Of a stretch of 7,559 nucleotides of DNA, positions 1 to 7,559 are shown piece after piece. This DNA is from Treponema sp. (GTDB lineage: Bacteria > Spirochaetota > Spirochaetia > Treponematales > Breznakiellaceae). Numbering within the stretch: the stretch's first letter is position 1; every line of letters starts with the position of its first letter. The stretch spans positions 1-7,559 of the forward strand of contig JAIRSD010000114.1 in the NCBI GenBank assembly GCA_031255615.1, given 5' to 3'. The position numbers were made by a program, and so were the translations under genes. The notes under the pieces were generated by a model that saw nothing but the letters and a program-made list of their open reading frames with translations, did not search any database and had not been told where the DNA came from.

Positions 1-611
1 TTCCCCCCAAAGAACAGACTGAACATGGTGGCCGCGGCGTAGCGGTTATAGTTGGCCGGCCAGCTCATGGGCGGACAGGGGCGGCCCCCATGGTATTCAC
101 CGTAGCGCTGCCAGGTAAAGGCCGCCCCCGTGGCGTCCATCAACTCCGGCCTCATGCCCAGTTCTTCCAGGGTCCAGGCCGGGGCGCCGTCCCCCCCGGT
201 AAAGCGGCTCCACACATCCTGATGGGGGTCGATGTAAACGGCGATACCCCATTTTTCCATGGCAAGGAGGAGTTTTCTCAGGTACGCTAAGTAGGATTCG
301 TCATACTGTCCGGGCCCCTGGTGTTCCAGGGCCTCCCAGGTGATGGGGAGCCGGACAAAGCTAAAGCCCCAGCGGACAAGCTGGGCCAGCCGTTCATCCG
401 CTTCTTCCAGGGGAAAAGGCCGCCCCACAAAGGACGCGTCCCCGGGATTTTCCAGAGATTGGGCCTCCAGACCCCAGCGCCGCGGACTTCCCCCCGCCCC
501 CCCCTCCGGGGAAGGATCCCGGGGGACCTTGGAATCGCCCCCCAGATTCAGCCCCCGTAAGACAAGGACCCGCCCCGTATCATCGACAATCCGGTTTTGG
601 CGGATCAGCAT
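1..611 (-). CDS. Glycoside hydrolase family 5 protein, 5' part (cut by left edge)
   Basis: Partial gene; 203 N-terminal residues are visible and the rest lies outside the window. The opening VLRGLNLGG (about residues 16-24), SFVGRPFPL (60-68), WGFSFVRLPITWEALEH (81-97) and the conserved IDPHQDVWSRFTGG stretch (127-140), followed by GAPAWTLE and a WPANYNRYAAATMFSLFFGG-type segment (184-203), are typical of the GH5 TIM-barrel branch that includes bacterial and fungal glycolipid or steryl beta-glucosidases and endoglycosylceramidase-like enzymes. The two catalytic glutamates lie downstream and cannot be checked. No signal peptide is seen, so the enzyme is probably cytoplasmic. Residues 30-58 form a Gly/Pro-rich loop that looks longer than usual. 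The ATG is chosen because an in-frame TAA lies 12 nt before it; a G-run about 5 nt upstream is a weak ribosome site. It follows the PTS IIA gene by 59 nt and may be co-transcribed with it. Family assignment is firm; the substrate is unknown. Confidence 0.85.
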   Translation of the reverse strand, partial: MLIRQNRIVDDTGRVLVLRGLNLGGDSKVPRDPSPEGGAGGSPRRWGLEAQSLENPGDASFVGRPFPLEEADERLAQLVRWGFSFVRLPITWEALEHQGPGQYDESYLAYLRKLLLAMEKWGIAVYIDPHQDVWSRFTGGDGAPAWTLEELGMRPELMDATGAAFTWQRYGEYHGGRPCPPMSWPANYNRYAAATMFSLFFGG

Positions 612-670
612 GGGGCCCCCGTTTTACGGCGAATCATCCGGGACTTCCGGCGGGAATCTGATAATACGGA

Positions 671-1117
671 TTAGGTAGAGAGGATCCTAAGCAGATCATC
701 CACCGACTGGGTGGCCAGGATTTCCTGCCGTTTTTCCGCGCTCTTGAAAAGCAGGCTTATCTCCGCCAGAAACTGCAAATGGGGACCAGTCTTCTCCACC
801 GGCGAAAGGGTCATAATGAAGATTCTGCACGGTTCGTGGTCCAGAGCTTCAAAATCCACCGCTTGGTCAGAAATTCCGATACAGGCAACCAAATCCGTAA
901 TCGTGGGACTTTTACCATGGGGAATAGCGATGCCGTGCTTCATCCCCGTAGACATCTTCCGTTCCCGGTCCATAACCGCGTTATAAGCGGCCTCGCGGTT
1001 GGGAATCTTATGAGCCGCGTACAACACATCCAGCAGCTCGTTGATAATCTCGTCTTTGGTGGTCCCCTTCAGGTGAAGTTTTATCGTTTCTGATGTAAGT
1101 ACCGTCTTAAGGTTCAT
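671..1117 (-). CDS. ptsN: PTS EIIA type-2 domain protein (PtsN / fructose-IIA family)
   Basis: 148-residue single-domain protein of the phosphotransferase EIIA type-2 fold. It accepts a phosphoryl group from HPr on the histidine of the GIAIPHGK motif (His67); a second conserved histidine lies in HLQFLAEI (His113). The length and the absence of fused IIB or IIC domains match PtsN-like regulatory IIA proteins rather than a transporter subunit, so a cytoplasmic regulatory role is inferred. The ATG at 1117 is chosen over an in-frame TTG at 1153, because that TTG is the first three bases of a -35 box (TTGACT) and the family normally begins near the MNLKTVL segment. There is no ribosome binding site before the ATG, and the promoter geometry implies a leaderless mRNA. 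It lies downstream of lptB on the same strand, separated by a repeat, and upstream of the GH5 gene. A sugar-specific IIA cannot be ruled out. Confidence 0.85.
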   Translation of the reverse strand: MNLKTVLTSETIKLHLKGTTKDEIINELLDVLYAAHKIPNREAAYNAVMDRERKMSTGMKHGIAIPHGKSPTITDLVACIGISDQAVDFEALDHEPCRIFIMTLSPVEKTGPHLQFLAEISLLFKSAEKRQEILATQSVDDLLRILST

Positions 1118-1153
1118 AGCAAACAGTGTAAAACCGGGTATCTGAAAAGTCAA
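1118..1153 (-). promoter_or_regulatory. Sigma70-type promoter of the PTS IIA gene, apparently leaderless
   Basis: On the minus strand, TTGACT (1153-1148, 5/6 match to consensus) is followed by a 17-nt spacer and TACACT (1130-1125, 4/6). Seven bases beyond the -10 box is position 1118, directly before the ATG at 1117. No Shine-Dalgarno sequence exists between the -10 box and the ATG. The assignment rests on sequence match and spacing only. Confidence 0.7.
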
Positions 1154-1217
1154 GGATTTCGTTTGACTGGACGGCGATTCTCAGTTCAGCGCATACCGCG
1201 TATCGAATGTATGTTTT

Positions 1218-1306
1218 GGGCGCATCCCCGCCTCCGGCGGGGACCGGGCTATCCGCTCTAACAAAAACCCTGCGGGTTTTTGTTCCGCTCCTATCCCTTG
1301 CGCGGG
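1218..1306 (+). repeat. Dispersed hairpin repeat, copy 1
   Basis: An 89-nt element in the lptB to PTS IIA gap. It has a 5' block (1218-1255) that is the same as the block at 5403-5364 on the minus strand apart from a 2-nt indel, a variable middle (1256-1287), and a 3' block (1288-1306, CTCCTATCCCTTGCGCGGG) identical to 5310-5292. The 5' block contains a small hairpin TCCCCGCC-tcc-GGCGGGGA (1225-1243); the middle holds an 11-bp AT-rich hairpin. Conserved flanks around an interchangeable hairpin core suggest a repeat family scattered through the genome. Its mobility and function are unknown. Confidence 0.8.
1260..1284. terminator. Bidirectional terminator-like hairpin inside repeat copy 1
   Basis: AACAAAAACCC-tgc-GGGTTTTTGTT is a perfect 11-bp inverted repeat with a 3-nt loop. 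On either strand it reads as an A-tract, a short C3/G3 core and a T-rich tail, which is the layout of a two-way intrinsic terminator. It lies about 130 nt beyond the lptB stop codon and could end the pyrG-lpt transcript before the PTS IIA promoter. The GC core is only 3 bp, so termination may be weak. Confidence 0.5.
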
Positions 1307-1412
1307 CGATGCCTCCTGAGTTGCTGCGCTCCGTGCGGCAATTTATGGATATTGCTCCCTGTGCGGCATTCTTAGCGGCGCAGTTTCCGCCCTGCTTTCC
1401 CCCGCCGGACGC

Positions 1413-2150
1413 CTACATCCTGAACTCGCTGCCCAGGTAGACCTCCCGGACCATCTCGTTGTTCAGAATTTCTTCCCGTCCCCCCCGGGCCACAATGGAA
1501 CCGTCGGCAATGATAAAGGCTTCGGTAGTAATCTCCAGGGTATCCCGGACATTGTGATCCGTGATCAGCACCCCGATACCCTTATCCGCCAGGCGGCGGA
1601 CTATCTGTTTGATCTCGAAAACCGCTATCGGATCAATCCCCGCAAAGGGTTCGTCCAGGAGCAGGAACTTCGGTTCCGTGGCCAGGGCCCGGGCAATTTC
1701 CGTCCGCCGCCGCTCGCCGCCGGAAAGGGTAAAGCCGTACTGTTTGCGGAGCCTCCCGATTCCGAACTCCTCCAGCAGGGATTCCAGCCGTTCCTTTTTC
1801 CCCACCCGGTTAATATCCCGGCGGCTTTCCAGGATAGCCCAAATATTCTGCTCTACCGTAAGTTTACGGAAGATCGACGCCTCCTGAGGCAGGTAGGCGA
1901 TGCCCTGGCGGGCCCGGAGGAACATGGGTTTGGCGGTAATGTCCACCTCGTCCATGCTGACCGCCCCCGTGGAGGGACGCAAAAACCCCACAATCATGTA
2001 AAAAATGGTGGTTTTCCCCGCGCCGTTGGGCCCCAGGAGTCCCGCCACTTCACCGTTGCTCATGGAAAAATTGACCCCCCGGACCACTTCTTTGCGGCCG
2101 AATTTCTTATGGAGGTCTCTTACGGCCAGAATATGAGTATTGTCGGCCAT
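1413..2150 (-). CDS. lptB: LptB, ATPase of the lipopolysaccharide-type export ABC transporter
   Basis: 245 residues, the usual LptB length. The ATP-binding cassette is complete: Walker A GPNGAGKT (40-47), Q-loop in [18 protein letters not shown] (Gln89), signature LSGGERRR (142-149), Walker B LLLDEP with catalytic Glu167, and switch His199 in ITDHN. The [14 protein letters not shown] stretch and the closing region are characteristic of LptB rather than of amino-acid transporter ATPases. In known systems it sits on the cytoplasmic face with LptF/LptG and drives extraction of a lipid A-linked glycolipid towards LptC and LptA; LptF/G are not in this window. The start ATG follows the lptA stop by 2 nt (TAG-cc-ATG) with no good ribosome site, so it is probably translated by coupling. 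It is the last gene of the pyrG-lptC-lptA operon. Many treponemes are thought to lack classical LPS, so the cargo is uncertain. Confidence 0.95.
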
Positions 2151-2152
2151 GG

Positions 2153-2791
2153 CTAATTCTTGATGGAACCGGATACGGTCCCTTCCATGGTAACGTCGTC
2201 GGTGTCCAGATCAACCCGAATCCGGTCGGCCCGGAATTCGTCGTCCTTCTTGAACACCACCGGGTAGCCCGAAAGGTCCAACAGCTTTTCCTGCCGCCGG
2301 TACACCGCGTACTCCGAGCGGCATACCATATCGTCCTTAAAAAGCCGGATCCCAATCTGGAAAACCACCACCTCGGTCTCGTCGTTGTACTCGATAAACC
2401 GGCCCCGGGTGATAATTTCGTTCTTCCGGTCCTCCAGGGTCGAATTGCCCTCCAGCCGGGCGATCTTAAGTTTCCGGTCGTAGCGGAGCCGGTCGGTCCT
2501 AAAGGAAATCTGTTTTTCATCGTCCAGCCCCGTTACGGCGCCGGAACAGTCGATAAATTGGTTGTCGTCCCCCTGAATCTCGATCCGGGTTGCCCGGAGC
2601 AGGAGGTTGTCGGATTGGACCTCGGCGTTTCCTATCAGGATGGTAATCTCCTTGCCGGAAGCCCGGCTGCCGGACATTTGATCCGCCCGAAAGGTAAAGG
2701 TATCCCCCCCCGCCCCCGCCGCGCAGAAGAACATGAACAACAGGAATCCCGGCAGGGGGTTTCGCCGCCGAATTTTATGGCGCCGGTTCAT
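2153..2791 (-). CDS. lptA: LptA/OstA-like periplasmic glycolipid-bridge protein
   Basis: 212 residues. A basic n-region (RRHKIRRR), a hydrophobic core (about 12-27, [16 protein letters not shown]) and small residues near 26-29 make a Sec signal peptide. The mature part carries OstA/LptA-like beta repeats of the type [19 protein letters not shown] (54-72), [19 protein letters not shown] (97-115) and [19 protein letters not shown] (186-204), each a short strand, turn, strand. In characterised systems LptA polymerises or bridges LptC to LptD across the periplasm. The start at 2791 is chosen for a strong GGAGG 9 nt upstream and because the signal peptide begins there; an in-frame ATG at 3001 would add 70 residues that only read lptC out of frame. 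It overlaps the end of lptC by 17 nt and is followed by lptB after 2 nt. Function follows from family and context; sequence identity to model LptA is probably low. Confidence 0.85.
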
Positions 2792-3380
2792 AGTCGTTTT
2801 CCTCCCCTTCCCCGTCCTCGTCTTCGTCTTCATCATCCTCATGGACATAGGCGCCCCCCACGGGGCCGGAGAATTCCCACCGGCGGCTTCGGGTGTTGAC
2901 CTTGAAACCCCGGCCCTGGAAACTGGTCCCGTCGTTCCGGAGTATCCTGACCGGGGCCTCCGGGCCGCCGGAGAGCTGCCGTTCCTTATCCAGCCAGTCA
3001 AGGCTTTCGGTTTCGATGGTAACGTTTTCGGAATCCACCGAGAGGCTTACGCCGCCGGAAATGCCGATGTTCCCCGAATCAAGTTCCACCCGGGCGGCGG
3101 CGGCCTTGCCGACGGAGTCGACCTCCTCCCCGCGGCCGGAAAATTGCTCAAAGGAAAAGTTGCGCAGTTCCATGAGCTGTTTGTCTTCGTAACGTTCCGC
3201 CTTCTCCGCCTGAAACCTGAGTTGGGGATCCCCGTCTTTTACCCGCACATACTCCACGTCGTTCATCATCAGATCCGGCAGTCCGGAATCTTCCCCCGCA
3301 TCCGCCCCGTAGTCAAAGGAACAGCCCGGAAGGAGTATAAAAAGAAGCAGGCAGCAAATCCCGTAAACATGGTTTTTCAT
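2775..3380 (-). CDS. lptC: LptC-like protein, predicted lipoprotein with an acidic C-terminal tail
   Basis: 201 residues. The N-terminus has a short hydrophobic segment (about 6-17) ending in LPGC, a lipobox with the lipidated cysteine at 20. The protein is therefore predicted to be a lipid-anchored periplasmic protein rather than having the transmembrane anchor of E. coli LptC. The region 40-170 reads as LptC/YrbK beta repeats (e.g. MNDVEYVRVKDGDPQLRFQAEKAE, AARVELDSGNIGISGGVSLSV, FQGRGFKVNTRSRRWEFSGPV). In known systems LptC receives lipid from LptBFG and passes it to LptA. Residues 181-198 are a run almost entirely of Asp/Glu, unusual for the family. The start ATG overlaps the pyrG stop as ATGA, with no Shine-Dalgarno site, so reinitiation after pyrG is expected. 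Identification rests on position before lptA/lptB and on the repeat pattern. Confidence 0.8.
   Translation of the reverse strand: MKNHVYGICCLLLFILLPGCSFDYGADAGEDSGLPDLMMNDVEYVRVKDGDPQLRFQAEKAERYEDKQLMELRNFSFEQFSGRGEEVDSVGKAAAARVELDSGNIGISGGVSLSVDSENVTIETESLDWLDKERQLSGGPEAPVRILRNDGTSFQGRGFKVNTRSRRWEFSGPVGGAYVHEDDEDEDEDGEGEENDYEPAP
2792..2808 (-). promoter_or_regulatory. Strong ribosome binding site of lptA inside the lptC tail codons
   Basis: AGGGGAGG (2808-2801) with core GGAGG ends 9 nt before the lptA ATG. It is made of the Gly/Glu codons that encode the acidic C-terminus of LptC, so one stretch serves as both protein sequence and translation signal. It decides the lptA start. Confidence 0.8.
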
Positions 3381-5053
3381 GGCTTTTCACGAGCCTCTGG
3401 CCGGGCCTCCGGCTCTTCGGCGCGGGGGCCGAGCATCCGGGCCTTTGAAGCGGCGATAAAATCCCGAAAGAGGGGGCTGGCCTGGGTAGGTTTGGACTTA
3501 AATTCCGGGTGGAACTGGACCCCCACCCCCCAGGGATGATCCGGCCATTCCGTACATTCCACCAGACCGCCGTCGGGGGTAAAGGCGGCGAGTTTCAGGC
3601 CGGCCTTTTCTATTTCTTCCCGGTATTTATTGGAAAATTCGTAGCGGTGCCGGTGCCGTTCCCAAATTTCTCTTGTCCCGTAGGCCGCATGAATCCAGCT
3701 TCCCGATTCCGCCACGGTCTTGCTGGCCCCCAGCCGCATGGTTCCGCCGTAGTCCTTTACGTTTACCTGTTCCGCCAGGAGACTGATCACCGGATGCTTG
3801 GTATCCTCGTCAAATTCACTGGAATCCGCGTCCTCCCAGCCCAGGACATGCCGCCCCCATTCGATAACCATGACCTGCATCCCCAGGCAGATGCCGAAGT
3901 AGGGAACCTTGTTGGCCCTGGCCCAGGCGGCGGCCTTTACCATGCCCTTGATTCCCCGCTGGCCGAATCCGCCGGGCACCAGGACTCCGTGGACCGGCCC
4001 CCCTTCGGCGCCTTCCCCCAGGGCCGCCCCCGGTTCCGAAATCTCCTCCAGCCGGGATGAATCGACTTTGATCAGCTCCACCTCCACCTCGTTTTCCATG
4101 CCCGCGTGGAACAGGGCCTCGTAGACGGACTTATAGGCGTCGTGGAGTTCCATATATTTCCCCACGACTCCGATGCGCACTTTGCCCCGGCGGGAATGGA
4201 ATTTTTCCATCATGGAAACCCAGGGGGCCAGGTTCGCGTGGCGGCTTTCCACCCCCATTTTTTTCAACACCACCTGTTCCAGTTTTTGGGCGTGGAAGAT
4301 CAGGGGTATTTCGTAGATTGTGGTATCCACGTCGTAGGAACTGAAGACCGAATCGAATTCCACGTTGGTAAAGAGGGCTACCTTTCTGCGGGTCGCCTCG
4401 TCCAGCATCACCGGGGTCCGGCAGATAAGGATATCCGGCTGGATTCCCGTTTCCTGCATGGCCTTAACCGAGTGTTGGGTCGGCTTGGTTTTAAGCTCCC
4501 CCCCGGCTACCGCGGGGACCAGGGTAAGGTGGACGGATAGGGCGTTGGCCCTGCCGTATTCATGGATAAGCTGGCGGGCCGCCTCCAGAAAGGGGATGGA
4601 CTCGATGTCCCCCACCGTACCGCCGATCTCCACAATTACCACGTCCACGTCCTGGTCTTCCCGGGCTATGCTCTGGATCCGGTTTTTGATCTCGTCGGTG
4701 ATGTGGGGGATAACCTGGACGCAGCGGCCCAGAAAACGGCCTTCCCGTTCCTTGTTGATAACCTCTTTGTAGATCTGTCCGGTGGTTATCGAGCTGGCCC
4801 GGGAAAGGGGGCTCCGGGTAAAGCGGGCGTAGTTTCCCAGGTCCAAGTCCGTTTCCGCCCCGTCGTCGGTCACATAGACTTCGCCGTGCTGGTAGGGGCT
4901 CATCGTACCGGCGTCCACGTTGATGTAGGGATCGCATTTGACCATCCTGACGTTAAGCCCCCGGGCTTCCAACAGGGCCCCCAGGGAAGATGCGGCCACC
5001 CCTTTCCCCAGGCCGGATAATACACCGCCGGAAACAAAAATTAGCTTATCCAT
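3377..5053 (-). CDS. pyrG: CTP synthase (glutamine-hydrolysing)
   Basis: 558 residues, slightly longer than E. coli PyrG (545). It converts UTP, ATP and glutamine to CTP in the cytoplasm. The N-terminal synthetase domain shows the P-loop SGGVLSGLGKG (8-18), KCDPYINVDAGTMSPYQHGEV (39-59), GAETDLDLG (65-73) and VEIGGTVGDIES (141-152, Glu142). The glutamine amidotransferase domain has the VPGGFGQRG oxyanion region (359-367), nucleophile Cys389 in GICLGMQ, and the His515/Glu517 pair in FHPEF. All key residues are present. The P-loop reads VLSGLGKG where many homologues have VVSSLGKG. Residues about 340-353 are a small Gly/Ala-rich insertion, and the last ~20 residues (RAEEPEARPEAREKP) are a charged tail beyond the family domain. 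The stop codon overlaps the lptC start. The ATG gives the canonical N-terminus; its promoter implies a leader of about 2 nt. Confidence 0.98.
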   Translation of the reverse strand: MDKLIFVSGGVLSGLGKGVAASSLGALLEARGLNVRMVKCDPYINVDAGTMSPYQHGEVYVTDDGAETDLDLGNYARFTRSPLSRASSITTGQIYKEVINKEREGRFLGRCVQVIPHITDEIKNRIQSIAREDQDVDVVIVEIGGTVGDIESIPFLEAARQLIHEYGRANALSVHLTLVPAVAGGELKTKPTQHSVKAMQETGIQPDILICRTPVMLDEATRRKVALFTNVEFDSVFSSYDVDTTIYEIPLIFHAQKLEQVVLKKMGVESRHANLAPWVSMMEKFHSRRGKVRIGVVGKYMELHDAYKSVYEALFHAGMENEVEVELIKVDSSRLEEISEPGAALGEGAEGGPVHGVLVPGGFGQRGIKGMVKAAAWARANKVPYFGICLGMQVMVIEWGRHVLGWEDADSSEFDEDTKHPVISLLAEQVNVKDYGGTMRLGASKTVAESGSWIHAAYGTREIWERHRHRYEFSNKYREEIEKAGLKLAAFTPDGGLVECTEWPDHPWGVGVQFHPEFKSKPTQASPLFRDFIAASKARMLGPRAEEPEARPEAREKP

Positions 5054-5091
5054 GTAAGGGTATTATTCTCCGCCCCCTTCCCCCGCGTCAA
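5054..5091 (-). promoter_or_regulatory. Sigma70-type promoter of the pyrG-lptCAB operon, apparently leaderless
   Basis: On the minus strand, TTGACG (5091-5086, 5/6) is followed by an 18-nt spacer and AATAAT (5067-5062, 5/6). The predicted start is near 5055, 2 nt before the pyrG ATG at 5053. A GGAG sequence at 5071-5068 is 14 nt from the ATG and lies upstream of the -10 box, so it would not be in this transcript. If a different promoter is used, that GGAG could act as a distant ribosome site. Confidence 0.6.
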
Positions 5092-5166
5092 TGACCCCTG
5101 GGGGCGGCGTTTCCGGGAGAGGCTTCCGCCGCCGGGATCGGCGTCCCGGGGGGGACGGAACGGCAG

Positions 5167-5200
5167 GGGGCCGCCGAAACGCGGGCGTTTCGGCGGCCCC
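5167..5200. other. Perfect 16-bp inverted repeat (hairpin) between pyrG and cheR
   Basis: Left arm 5167-5182 (begins GGGGCCGCCGAAACGC) and right arm 5185-5200 are exact reverse complements separated by two bases. On the plus strand it is followed by a T-containing stretch (TTATGTGGTGTTTT), which is a poor terminator tail. No gene ends next to it, so it looks like a structural or repeat-derived element rather than an ordinary terminator. Confidence 0.75.
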
Positions 5201-5233
5201 TTATGTGGTGTTTTCGGCGGGGAGAGCCCCCGG

Positions 5234-5258
5234 GCCGCCGCGCCATAGGCGCGGCGGC
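5234..5258. other. Perfect 11-bp hairpin between pyrG and cheR
   Basis: GCCGCCGCGCC (5234-5244), loop ATA, and GGCGCGGCGGC (5248-5258). Both arms are entirely G/C and no T-run follows on either strand. It is one of a row of hairpins next to repeat copy 2. Confidence 0.75.
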
Positions 5259-5264
5259 TGGGAA

Positions 5265-5293
5265 GGAGAAAGCCGCGGCAGGCGGCTTTCTCC
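5265..5293. other. Perfect 12-bp hairpin abutting repeat copy 2
   Basis: GGAGAAAGCCGC (5265-5276), a 5-nt loop and GCGGCTTTCTCC (5282-5293). It overlaps the end of the conserved repeat block by two bases, so it may be part of a longer form of the element. There is no clear T-run. Confidence 0.7.
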
Positions 5294-5403
5294 CGCGCAA
5301 GGGATAGGAGGGGTGCGAAGCAGACCCGGCGCGAAGCGCCGGGGCCGGAGCGCAGCGGAGCCCCGGATAGCCCGGTCCCCGCCGGACCGGCGGGGATGCG
5401 CCC
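5292..5403 (-). repeat. Dispersed hairpin repeat, copy 2 (inverted relative to copy 1)
   Basis: A 112-nt element on the minus strand. Its 40-nt 5' block (5403-5364) matches copy 1 except for two extra bases in a hairpin loop, and its 19-nt 3' block (5310-5292) is identical. The 53-nt core differs completely in sequence but is again hairpin-forming, for example CCCGGCGC-gaa-GCGCCGGG at 5325-5343 on the plus strand. The 5' block contains TCCCCGCCGG-a-CCGGCGGGGA (5376-5396). It sits 55 nt upstream of the cheR -35 box. Confidence 0.8.
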
Positions 5404-5458
5404 AGGATGCGCCGGATATAGGGATTGTCTACGCTGGGTATTACCTGGCGGGGACTCA

Positions 5459-5494
5459 TTGACAGGAGGGGGGCGAGACTCTACTATGTAAGCC
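5459..5494 (+). promoter_or_regulatory. Sigma70-type promoter of cheR-cheB, apparently leaderless
   Basis: A perfect -35 TTGACA (5459-5464), a 17-nt spacer and TACTAT (5482-5487, 4/6 with the key second A and last T). The predicted transcription start is 5494, one base before the cheR ATG. A GGAGG at 5465-5469 lies immediately after the -35 box, about 25 nt from the ATG, and would not be part of the mRNA. Confidence 0.7.
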
Positions 5495-6310
5495 ATGGCG
5501 GATGTAGTTTTCCTTGGGGACGCCGATTTTCAAAAATATAAAGCTCTTATATACAAAGAGAGCGGTATAACTTTTACCGCTACCAACCGGGCGATTTTGG
5601 AAAGCAGGATTAAAGAACAGCTTCGCAGCCGCAATATTGATTCTGTTAAGGCGTATTTCGAAAAAATATCCACAAGCAGGGAAGAGCTTAAGAATTTTCT
5701 TGACAGCATAACTACCAATCTTACGCGCTTTTTTCGCAATCAGGCCCATTTTGACGCGCTGGAGCATTATGTGATTCCCGAGCTGATAAAGGCCAAGCAG
5801 GGGAGCAATACTATTAAGATTTGGAGCGCCGGTTGTTCGACGGGAGAGGAACCGTACACTATCGCCATGTTGTTAAGCGATATTCTTCCGCCGTCCTGGA
5901 AGTACGAAATTCTGGCCAGCGATATAAGTCTGAAATGTCTTATGACCGCCAAGGAGGGTTTTTACGCGGATTCCCGGGTTGTGGGAATTCCCGACAACTA
6001 TTTGAAAAAATATTTTGATAAGGTGGACGGCGGCTATAAAGTTCACGCCGACATCATGTCCAGGATACGTTTTGACTACCACAATTTGGCCAATGAATCG
6101 GGGCAGCGGAATTTGGATATTGTATTTTGCCGGAATGTGATCATCTATTTCGATGAGATTGCCCAGGCCGCGGTGATTAACCGGTTTTGGGATTCCATGG
6201 CCGGTAAATCGTATCTGTTTATTGGACATTCGGAATCTCTTTTTGGCATGAAGACAAAATTTGAATTTGTAAAAACTGAATGGGCCACCTTTTACCGGAA
6301 ATCGGGGTAG
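5495..6310 (+). CDS. cheR: CheR, chemoreceptor glutamate methyltransferase
   Basis: 271 residues, normal for CheR. It transfers methyl groups from S-adenosylmethionine to glutamates of chemoreceptors during adaptation. The N-terminal helical CheR domain (about 8-70) leads to TTNLTRFFR (73-81). The SAM-binding domain has SAGCSTGEEPYTIAM (111-125, motif I), ASDIS (141-145), DIVFCRNVIIYF (208-219) and LFIGHSESL (241-249). All core motifs are intact, and no TPR or extra C-terminal domain is present. The ATG at 5495 gives the expected N-terminus; the promoter places the transcript start at it, and there is no nearby Shine-Dalgarno site. cheB follows after 91 nt. Composition is unusual: three 60-base samples counted by hand gave about 35, 47 and 40% GC, against about 62% in the body of cheB. 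Confidence 0.97.
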   Translation: MADVVFLGDADFQKYKALIYKESGITFTATNRAILESRIKEQLRSRNIDSVKAYFEKISTSREELKNFLDSITTNLTRFFRNQAHFDALEHYVIPELIKAKQGSNTIKIWSAGCSTGEEPYTIAMLLSDILPPSWKYEILASDISLKCLMTAKEGFYADSRVVGIPDNYLKKYFDKVDGGYKVHADIMSRIRFDYHNLANESGQRNLDIVFCRNVIIYFDEIAQAAVINRFWDSMAGKSYLFIGHSESLFGMKTKFEFVKTEWATFYRKSG

Positions 6311-6350
6311 GGGTTTCCCTTACATGAGGCGGCTGTAGAGAGGGGGCTTC

Positions 6351-6369
6351 GCGGGCCTTTCCGGGCCGC
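6351..6369 (+). other. Short GC hairpin in the cheR-cheB gap
   Basis: GCGGGCC (6351-6357) can pair with GGGCCGC (6363-6369) over seven positions with one G-G mismatch, around a TTTCC loop. It lies 41 nt after the cheR stop and about 20 nt before the cheB ribosome site. With no T-tail it is unlikely to be a full terminator; a modest effect on cheB level or mRNA stability is possible. Confidence 0.35.
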
Positions 6370-6389
6370 GCGGGGTCTGCCACGGGAAA

Positions 6390-6401
6390 AAGGAGTGGTC
6401 T
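6390..6401 (+). promoter_or_regulatory. Strong ribosome binding site of cheB (decides a GTG start)
   Basis: AAGGAG (6390-6395) followed by a 6-nt spacer to GTG at 6402. This canonical site supports the GTG start and contrasts with the missing site before cheR. Confidence 0.85.
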
Positions 6402-7559
6402 GTGGCTAATGAAATATCTGTTTTAATTGTCGATGATTCCGCGTTGATGCGTAATCTTATAGGTAAAATGGTGGAGGCAACGCCGGGTCTGGTGATTGCC
6501 GACAAGGCGATGAACGGGCGTTTCGCCCTGGACAAGATTCCCCGGGTAAACCCCGACGTAATCGTCCTGGATCTGGAAATGCCGGAGATGAACGGCATCG
6601 AATTTCTGCGGGAGCGGAAGAAGCGGGGTATAAATATTCCGGTGATCATCCTCTCCTCCATAGCGGCCAGGGGCGCGGCGATCACCATGGAGGCCCTTTC
6701 CCTGGGGGCCAACGATTTTATTCAGAAGCCTTCGGGTTCGATTTCGGAAGATATACACACCGTGCGGGATCGTCTGGTCGAACTCCTGTTGGGTTACGGA
6801 AGCCAGTACCGGCGAATCAACGGGAAAGTGCTGGTGTCCCCCGGCGAGGCCAAGGCGGTGAATCCGGCGGCCGCGGAGTCTATGAGCAAGGGCGCGGTTT
6901 CCATTGCGTCGATTCTGGAATCCGGCGTTTCCCATGCCCCGGCCCTCGCCAAGTCTCCGACCCCCCTGCGGCGGCCCGCCAATACGGAGCTTATCGCCAT
7001 CGGTATTTCTACCGGGGGGCCCGATGCTTTGCGGGTGGTGTTCTCCATGCTGGACGCGGATCTTAAGGCGCCCATCGTGGTGGTCCAGCATATGCCCGCG
7101 GGTTTTACCAATGAGTTCGCGAAAAGTCTTGACCGGGTGTGCCCCCTGGATGTGAAGGAGGTGGAGGATGGGGATCCGCTGATTCCCGGACGCATCCTTA
7201 TCGCCCAGGGAAACAAGCATTTGGAGGTTGGCCGCAAGAACGGCCTCCCGGTCGCCCATCTTTCCGACGCTCCCCTGGTGAGCGGCCACCGGCCCAGCGC
7301 GGACGTGCTTTTCGCCTCCGCGGCCCTGACCTTCCAGAACCATGTCCTGGGGGTGATCATGACCGGCATGGGCCGGGACGGCGCGGCCCAACTGGGAACC
7401 ATCTACAAGGAAGGGGGCCTTACCCTGGGGCAGGACGAGGCCAGCGCGGTGGTTTACGGTATGCCCCGGGTCGCCTTCGAACTCGGCCATGTGCAGGAGC
7501 AGGTGCCCCTGAACCAGATGGCCCGGCGTATCTGCGACATCGCAAAGACTAGGCGTTAG
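6402..7559 (+). CDS. cheB: CheB, chemotaxis response-regulator protein-glutamate methylesterase
   Basis: 385 residues from a GTG start, ending with TAG at the last base of the window. The N-terminal receiver (1-~125) has the acidic pair Asp11/Asp12, phosphoacceptor Asp57 in VLDLEMPEMNG, the Ser85-Ser86 switch position and Lys109. A linker of about 65 residues (roughly 130-195) leads to the C-terminal esterase with Ser203 in GISTGGP, His230 in QHMPAGFT and Asp326 in MTGMGRDG, the family's catalytic triad. Phosphorylation by CheA releases the esterase, which removes methyl groups added by CheR and deamidates receptor glutamines. The linker is rather long, rich in Ala, Ser and Pro, and of unknown significance. 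Composition changes inside the gene: bases 6421-6480 are about 38% GC, and 6481-6540 about 62%. It is co-transcribed with cheR on present evidence. Confidence 0.97.
   Translation: MANEISVLIVDDSALMRNLIGKMVEATPGLVIADKAMNGRFALDKIPRVNPDVIVLDLEMPEMNGIEFLRERKKRGINIPVIILSSIAARGAAITMEALSLGANDFIQKPSGSISEDIHTVRDRLVELLLGYGSQYRRINGKVLVSPGEAKAVNPAAAESMSKGAVSIASILESGVSHAPALAKSPTPLRRPANTELIAIGISTGGPDALRVVFSMLDADLKAPIVVVQHMPAGFTNEFAKSLDRVCPLDVKEVEDGDPLIPGRILIAQGNKHLEVGRKNGLPVAHLSDAPLVSGHRPSADVLFASAALTFQNHVLGVIMTGMGRDGAAQLGTIYKEGGLTLGQDEASAVVYGMPRVAFELGHVQEQVPLNQMARRICDIAKTRR

Follow-up and report, generated by a model that had tools for sequence, protein, structure and literature searches.

Leaderless genes, for which actinobacteria, Deinococcus, and archaea are the best-known sources, have already been described in spirochaetes as well, both as predictions and from differential RNA sequencing (dRNA-seq) of Leptospira: the retrieved sections of the respective papers report predicted leaderless genes for 6 of the 18 spirochaete genomes surveyed, where they average 3.9% of genes (1.8–6.9) (Zheng et al. 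2011, PMC3160421), and ≈440 Leptospira interrogans mRNAs with leaders shorter than 10 nt, of which, at 30 °C, 184 begin precisely with the start codon (PMC5243855). The start site favored by bacterial RNA polymerase lies 7 bp past the −10 box, with starts more than 2 bp further down or more than 1 bp further up being rare (excerpts of PMC5730371), and translation of leaderless mRNAs from a 5′-terminal AUG by 70S ribosomes is a known behavior (excerpts of the review PMC9031893). Here, we place in this context three genes, ptsN, pyrG, and cheR, each at the head of a predicted transcription unit in a 7559-nt stretch of DNA from Treponema sp. (assembly GCA_031255615.1, contig JAIRSD010000114.1, positions 1–7559, forward strand), hereafter the window. 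All three are preceded by σ70-type promoters with −10 boxes that end just 7 to 8 nt before the ATG, which predicts mRNA starts 0 to 2 nt before the AUG and very probably leaderless initiation; this geometry is conserved in the lineage and, in samples of related genomes, marks a minority class of operon heads rather than a rule for first genes.

The promoter of ptsN, on the minus strand, consists of a −35 box TTGACT (1148–1153) and a −10 box TACACT (1125–1130) separated by 17 nt, with 7 nt remaining to the ATG at 1117. The pyrG promoter, on the same strand, comprises TTGACG (5086–5091) and AATAAT (5062–5067) with an 18-nt spacer and 8 nt to the ATG at 5053, whereas cheR, on the plus strand, is preceded by TTGACA (5459–5464) and TACTAT (5482–5487) with a 17-nt spacer and 7 nt to the ATG at 5495. 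Counted from the A of the ATG, the first base of the −35 box is thus 36 nt away in ptsN, 38 nt in pyrG, and 36 nt in cheR, so that the hexamers, spacers, and distances described in an earlier sequence-only reading of this DNA are all reproduced. The same reading had noted that a usable Shine–Dalgarno (SD) site is absent before these three ATGs and that the internal genes have initiation signals of their own, and both observations are borne out in the window: a GGAGG lies 9 nt from the ATG of lptA (2801–2805, minus strand) and an AAGGAG lies 6 nt from the GTG of cheB (6390–6395, plus strand), while lptC overlaps the pyrG stop codon in an ATGA and lptB starts 2 nt past the lptA stop codon. The start codon of cheR is fixed by an in-frame TAA two codons upstream (5489–5491, plus strand) and that of pyrG by an in-frame TAA four codons upstream (5065–5063), inside the −10 box itself. 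The ptsN frame is open upstream to a TTG at 1153; the best ptsN matches of several relatives sit in open frames of only 149 to 153 residues for a match of 146 to 147 residues.

Since AT-rich hexamers are common, such sites could in principle arise by chance or be placed next to mis-called start codons, and a scan of both strands of the window at a threshold of 9 of 12 does reveal no overall enrichment, with five σ70-like sites compared with 3.4 expected in shuffled sequence. Three of these five sites, however, fall exactly at the three heads, where ≈0.003 would be expected by simple arithmetic, and at this threshold they are the sole promoter-like matches in the lptB–ptsN and pyrG–cheR intergenic regions. 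Together with the in-frame stops that fix the cheR and pyrG starts and the comparative evidence below, covering 30 to 109 upstream regions per gene and promoter boxes that change less than their surroundings on protein trees, this leaves chance or mis-called starts a negligible probability.

To place the window promoters in the context of their orthologues, we collected upstream regions of all three genes. The cheR set derives from 80 cheR loci and from those pyrG loci that also contain cheR. The ptsN search gave a match in 34 of 34 genomes, of which the best 30 places were taken as loci, and the pyrG searches covered 4, 30, and 145 genomes together with 40 short stretches; the largest of these gave a match in 125 genomes, and upstream regions of the 30 best matches were extracted as loci, those of a further 40 as stretches. 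Identity floors were set at 45% for pyrG, 55% for cheR, and 60% for ptsN; identical 60-nt upstream regions, regions with less than 50 nt upstream, and matches starting after residue 25 were dropped, as was L288, which has a GTG start and keeps TAC before it. A region was called leaderless-type when it harbored a promoter with a score of 8 of 12 or higher and a −10 box 5 to 9 nt before the start codon. By this definition, 79 of 90 nonidentical cheR regions (gap of 6 nt in 38 and 7 nt in 30), 94 of 109 pyrG regions (gap of 8 nt in 88), and 29 of 30 ptsN regions (gap of 6 nt in 19) are leaderless-type. The gap between the −10 box and the ATG is therefore specific to each gene, mostly 6 to 7 nt in cheR, 8 nt in pyrG, and mostly 6 nt in ptsN. 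An ATG start is found in every leaderless-type orthologue (79/79, 94/94, and 29/29 for cheR, pyrG, and ptsN, respectively), a figure that carries a selection effect, as the script favored ATG and the GTG-initiated L288 was excluded. Among the exceptions to the geometry, 8 of 11 cheR regions and 9 of 15 pyrG regions have an SD match instead, the pyrG genes of four rumen-type Treponema loci (L195–L198) being a case in point. The ptsN promoter is kept in G001, the complete genome of Breznakiella homolactica and of the same kin as the window, and in G002, although ptsN does not adjoin pyrG in either genome.

We next asked how often individual promoter positions change on protein trees of 61 (PyrG), 46 (CheR), and 31 (PtsN) tips. 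The PyrG tree was restricted to rows with at least 60% identity and proteins of at least 300 residues, which leaves out the short pyrG loci and includes three members that are not leaderless-type (L201, L260, and L278). On this tree, the numbers of changes are 2, 3, 2, 8, and 2 at positions −13 to −9, within the −10 box, and 5 to 12 at the TTGAC positions, compared with 14 to 28 at the spacer positions (−31 to −14). The boxes also change less than the spacers in cheR and ptsN, but the pattern is weaker than in pyrG, as small variation in the gap blurs the alignment columns; in ptsN, columns −30 to −27 are conserved at least as well as the box columns. The −35 box of ptsN forms part of a longer motif, TTGACTTTT (window 1145–1153), which is common in orthologues L145–L174. 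A conserved gap of 6 to 8 nt in most orthologues, maintained while spacer bases turn over, strongly supports that part of the sequence-only reading which predicted leaderless mRNAs for ptsN, pyrG, and cheR; its extension to first genes in general did not survive, as detailed below. With the start preference of RNA polymerase documented in the excerpts of PMC5730371, gaps of 6 to 8 nt would have transcription start on the A of the ATG itself or no further than ≈2 nt before it, and by analogy with known leaderless mRNAs the ribosome, likely as a 70S particle, would then bind the 5′-terminal AUG without an SD site.

The divergent arrangement of pyrG and cheR provides an additional constraint on leader length. 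In all 39 loci that contain both starts (several per genome possible), the two genes are divergent and lie 50 to 3100 bp apart. In four of these (L016, L019, L029, and L276), the starts are only ≈50 to 60 bp apart, with offsets of a few nucleotides remaining, and the entire cheR promoter and the pyrG −10 box are interleaved inside this short spacer; a 20-nt leader on both transcripts would not fit the promoters of these pairs.

Several observations weigh against leaderless initiation at these genes. SD matches of at least 4 nt occur in 12 of 94 pyrG, 5 of 79 cheR, and 3 of 29 ptsN leaderless-type regions, and the closest pyrG–cheR pairs have a weak match to the pyrG −35 box (e.g., TGGATC). Three accessory expectations were not borne out: leaderless-type and leadered heads in the genome survey described below show no difference in the structure of their first 40 nt (p = 0.16), the proportion of purines in the discriminator is not correlated with gap length (rho −0.21, p = 0.07 for cheR; rho 0.11, p = 0.53 for the 33 leaderless-type heads of that survey), and a pyrimidine precedes the start no more commonly in leaderless-type (25/33) than in leadered heads (61/83), with the cheR tree set having one in 46 of 46 cases. 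A mapped 5′ end for the window organism or a close relative was not found in the literature searched. The evidence is, moreover, that of sequence alone, on which additional upstream promoters or read-through into ptsN could exist, and the ptsN frame of the window is open upstream of the ATG. The promoters might thus be real while the functional transcripts are leadered, with the main start lying further upstream or the leader arising from read-through, and the near promoter acting as a secondary start or an operator. We consider this unlikely: the lptB–ptsN and pyrG–cheR intergenic regions contain no other promoter-like match at the 9-of-12 threshold, no SD site is found at a usable distance before the three ATGs, a terminator-like hairpin precedes ptsN, and a promoter serving a leadered transcript needs no constant distance to the ATG, yet that distance is kept. 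Leaderless transcription of all three genes, supported by the conserved gap and by boxes that change less than spacers, thus remains the reading that we favor.

The sequence-only reading had gone further and proposed a systematic split, with leaderless initiation as the general rule for first genes and SD sites or translational coupling for internal genes. The genome-wide enrichment of promoters near ATGs that it had put forward as a check is indeed present: the whole genomes of G002, G003, and G001 contain 29, 74, and 49 instances, respectively, of TTGAC-18-TANNNT with an ATG 5 to 8 nt further along, compared with 3, 3, and 7 for a reversed-pattern control. At 10 to 13 nt, the corresponding counts are 10, 25, and 14 (control, 3, 6, and 5), some of which arise from promoters already counted that have another ATG nearby. 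To count operon heads, we surveyed stretches of four genomes, 400 kb of G001 (evenly spaced), 394 kb of G002, 400 kb of G003, and 268 kb of G094, the latter three being nonrandom sets of the first-numbered contigs (40, 20, and 20, cut at 20 kb), with starts assigned by a coding-potential caller blind to upstream sequence and a head promoter score of at least 7. A promoter at a gap of 5 to 9 nt is found at 33 of 476 heads (4/140, 5/113, 16/129, and 8/94 in the four genomes, one of them being ptsN of G003), compared with 1.45 expected from mononucleotide-shuffled upstream regions and with 1 of 375 internal genes (Fisher p = 5e-8). Only three heads have a promoter at a gap of 10 to 14 nt, so that the distribution is a peak followed by a valley, and the 5- to 9-nt class exceeds the 10- to 14-nt class at each of five promoter thresholds (55 versus 11, 48 versus 6, 33 versus 3, 17 versus 1, and 6 versus 1). 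An SD match of at least 4 nt is present in 5 of the 33 leaderless-type heads compared with 58 of 83 heads with the −10 box at least 15 nt away (Fisher p = 8e-8). The leaderless-type class is therefore genuine, occurs almost exclusively at heads, and is poor in SD sites, yet most heads lack the geometry.

This near confinement to heads is what a systematic split would predict, as is the higher frequency of SD matches in internal genes (241/375, 64%) than in heads (219/476). The latter figure, however, means that 46% of heads have an SD match, and the geometry itself reaches only a small fraction of heads in each of the four genomes; the rumen-type Treponema pyrG genes noted above, with an SD match in place of the geometry, likewise do not follow the split. 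The general rule thus fails on these counts and is very unlikely to hold. The spirochaete counts are probably underestimates, given inexact start calls and a strict promoter cut-off, but this is hardly sufficient to make leaderless initiation the rule. As a control, 200 kb of E. coli K-12 run through the identical pipeline gave 0 of 100 heads at a gap of 5 to 9 nt at thresholds 5 to 8; because only 5 E. coli promoters are recognized at threshold 7 compared with 38 at threshold 5, the control carries weight chiefly at the looser setting (0/38 versus 55/254). Of 77 annotated E. coli genes examined, from two of the four stretches, 57 had an exact start call. Two other counting schemes were set aside. 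A survey of the first ATG of long open reading frames gave a strong peak at a gap of 6 nt in the 80 cheR loci, which was largely the contribution of the cheR and pyrG orthologues that every locus contains (in the closer set, they account for ≈29 of roughly 44 cases); applied to the genome stretches this method gave only a weak signal and was replaced by the coding-potential start calls. An exact TTGAC/TANNNT scan of the stretches yielded too few cases in G001 and G002 for use. An intact 16S rRNA tail pattern (anti-SD) occurs in two copies in G001 and was not found in five other genomes searched, assemblies that may lack the 16S rRNA gene. Finally, locus L118 of G003 harbors divergent genes 63 bp apart that both have leaderless-type promoters, and a 4-nt SD match is present in one of the two. 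One of the two protein starts resembles what we take to be a TrmJ-type methyltransferase.

The pyrG promoter is distinguished further by a conserved AC dinucleotide adjoining the ATG (5054–5055, minus strand), a possible 2-nt leader. Among the leaderless-type pyrG regions, C(−1) is found in 87 of 94 and A(−2) in 79 of 94; on the 61-tip PyrG tree, which contains no pyrG lacking C(−1), this C is present in all tips and changes 0 times, and A(−2) changes four times, a lower number than at each of the TTGAC positions. In a second count, the dinucleotide AC is found before the start in 77 of 91 gap-8 pyrG regions, 5 of 107 cheR and ptsN regions, and 1 of 33 leaderless-type heads. Because the product of pyrG makes cytidine triphosphate (CTP), it is an attractive guess that transcription may start at A(−2), C(−1), or A(+1) depending on the CTP level. 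In this scheme, plentiful CTP would favor starts at A(−2) or C(−1) and a poorly translated 1- to 2-nt leader (AC-AUG), whereas scarce CTP would shift the start to the A of the AUG and yield a leaderless, better translated mRNA; the putative sensor would be the conserved C, the preceding A, and the pyrG-specific 8-nt gap. Seven leaderless-type pyrG regions lack C(−1), those of Treponema loci L052, L056, L064, and L080 and of the short loci L285, L287, and L306, and the SD-bearing regions L278 and L315 retain it, where such a sensor would not need it. We regard the scheme as rather doubtful; if true, it would represent CTP sensing without a protein, a hairpin, or an SD site.

The genes of the window are arranged as pyrG-lptC-lptA-lptB and then ptsN on the minus strand, divergent from cheR-cheB on the plus strand. 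On the minus strand, pyrG (3377–5053) encodes CTP synthase (NF003792) and is followed by lptC (2775–3380; TIGR04409), an lptA-like gene (2153–2791; TIGR03002, below the curated cut-off), lptB (1413–2150; TIGR04406), and ptsN (671–1117), the latter encoding a phosphotransferase system EIIA/PtsN-like protein that matches TIGR00848 and TIGR01419, both scoring below the curated cut-off. On the plus strand, cheR (5495–6310; NF007902, below the curated cut-off) precedes cheB (6402–7559; NF001965), which has a GTG start. A perfect 11-bp terminator-like hairpin (1260–1284; −12.8 kcal/mol, z −3.7) separates lptB from ptsN and supports the assignment of ptsN as an operon head. The lptC-lptA-lptB and ptsN region (671–3380) recalls the E. 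coli order lptC-lptA-lptB-rpoN-hpf-ptsN, minus rpoN and hpf, and positions 1 to 614 (minus strand) encode part of a GH5 cellulase-like protein that runs past the window edge. The pyrG–cheR spacer measures 441 bp in the window compared with 103, 133, and 148 bp in the near relatives L254, L256, and L001, in which both genes lie on one contig. Between the two window promoters is a copy of a GC-rich interspersed repeat (5294–5405) with matches in related genomes; similar segments recur there, with at least 16 matches in one genome in the subset of candidates scored. Window segments 1233–1309 and 5289–5405 are inverted copies of parts of this ≈100- to 110-bp repeat. The genomes nearest to the window share 85% (CheR) and 91 to 92% (PyrG) identity with it and are metagenome bins titled Treponema or Spirochaetaceae where named, presumably from termite or cockroach guts. 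L023, in a record titled Bacteroidetes bacterium, harbors a cheR 75% identical to that of the window, and this bin is probably mislabeled or mixed.

How, then, do these genes compare with known systems? We recognized no paper on leaderless mRNAs in Treponema among the matches listed in a search of the open-licence literature, and the retrieved main text of a T. pallidum transcriptome paper (PMC12223175) has 0 occurrences of the terms leader, UTR, or cheR. The window genes share with the "TA-led" genes of Zheng et al., as described in excerpts of that paper (PMC3160421), a −10-like signal ≈10 to 12 bp before the start and the lack of an SD site, and differ in that the evidence here is assembled gene by gene, with conserved orthologous promoters. 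A TANNNT ≈12 bp before the start, the TA-led criterion, is found in ptsN and cheR, whereas the strict motif misses window pyrG, which has the −10 box AATAAT. Leptospira interrogans belongs to the same phylum and is a distant spirochaete, and 5′ ends are mapped there and only predicted for the window genes; ptsN, pyrG, and cheR have 0 occurrences in the retrieved main text of the dRNA-seq paper (PMC5243855). What the present comparison adds is the retention of a leaderless-type promoter, despite wide divergence, at single core genes of a spirochaete lineage, in genomes where about half of the sampled heads have SD matches, which opens the gene-by-gene question of what leaderless initiation serves. 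In pyrG, the conserved C before the start raises the possibility of regulation via the first transcribed nucleotides. E. coli pyrimidine genes such as pyrC use nucleotide-sensitive switching of the transcription start site, and pyrG, likewise a pyrimidine gene, has alternative candidate start bases, including a C, 7 to 9 bp past the −10 box. Any such switching in pyrG would differ from the pyrC type in its outcome, deciding whether the mRNA has a 1- to 2-nt leader rather than whether a hairpin covers an SD site.

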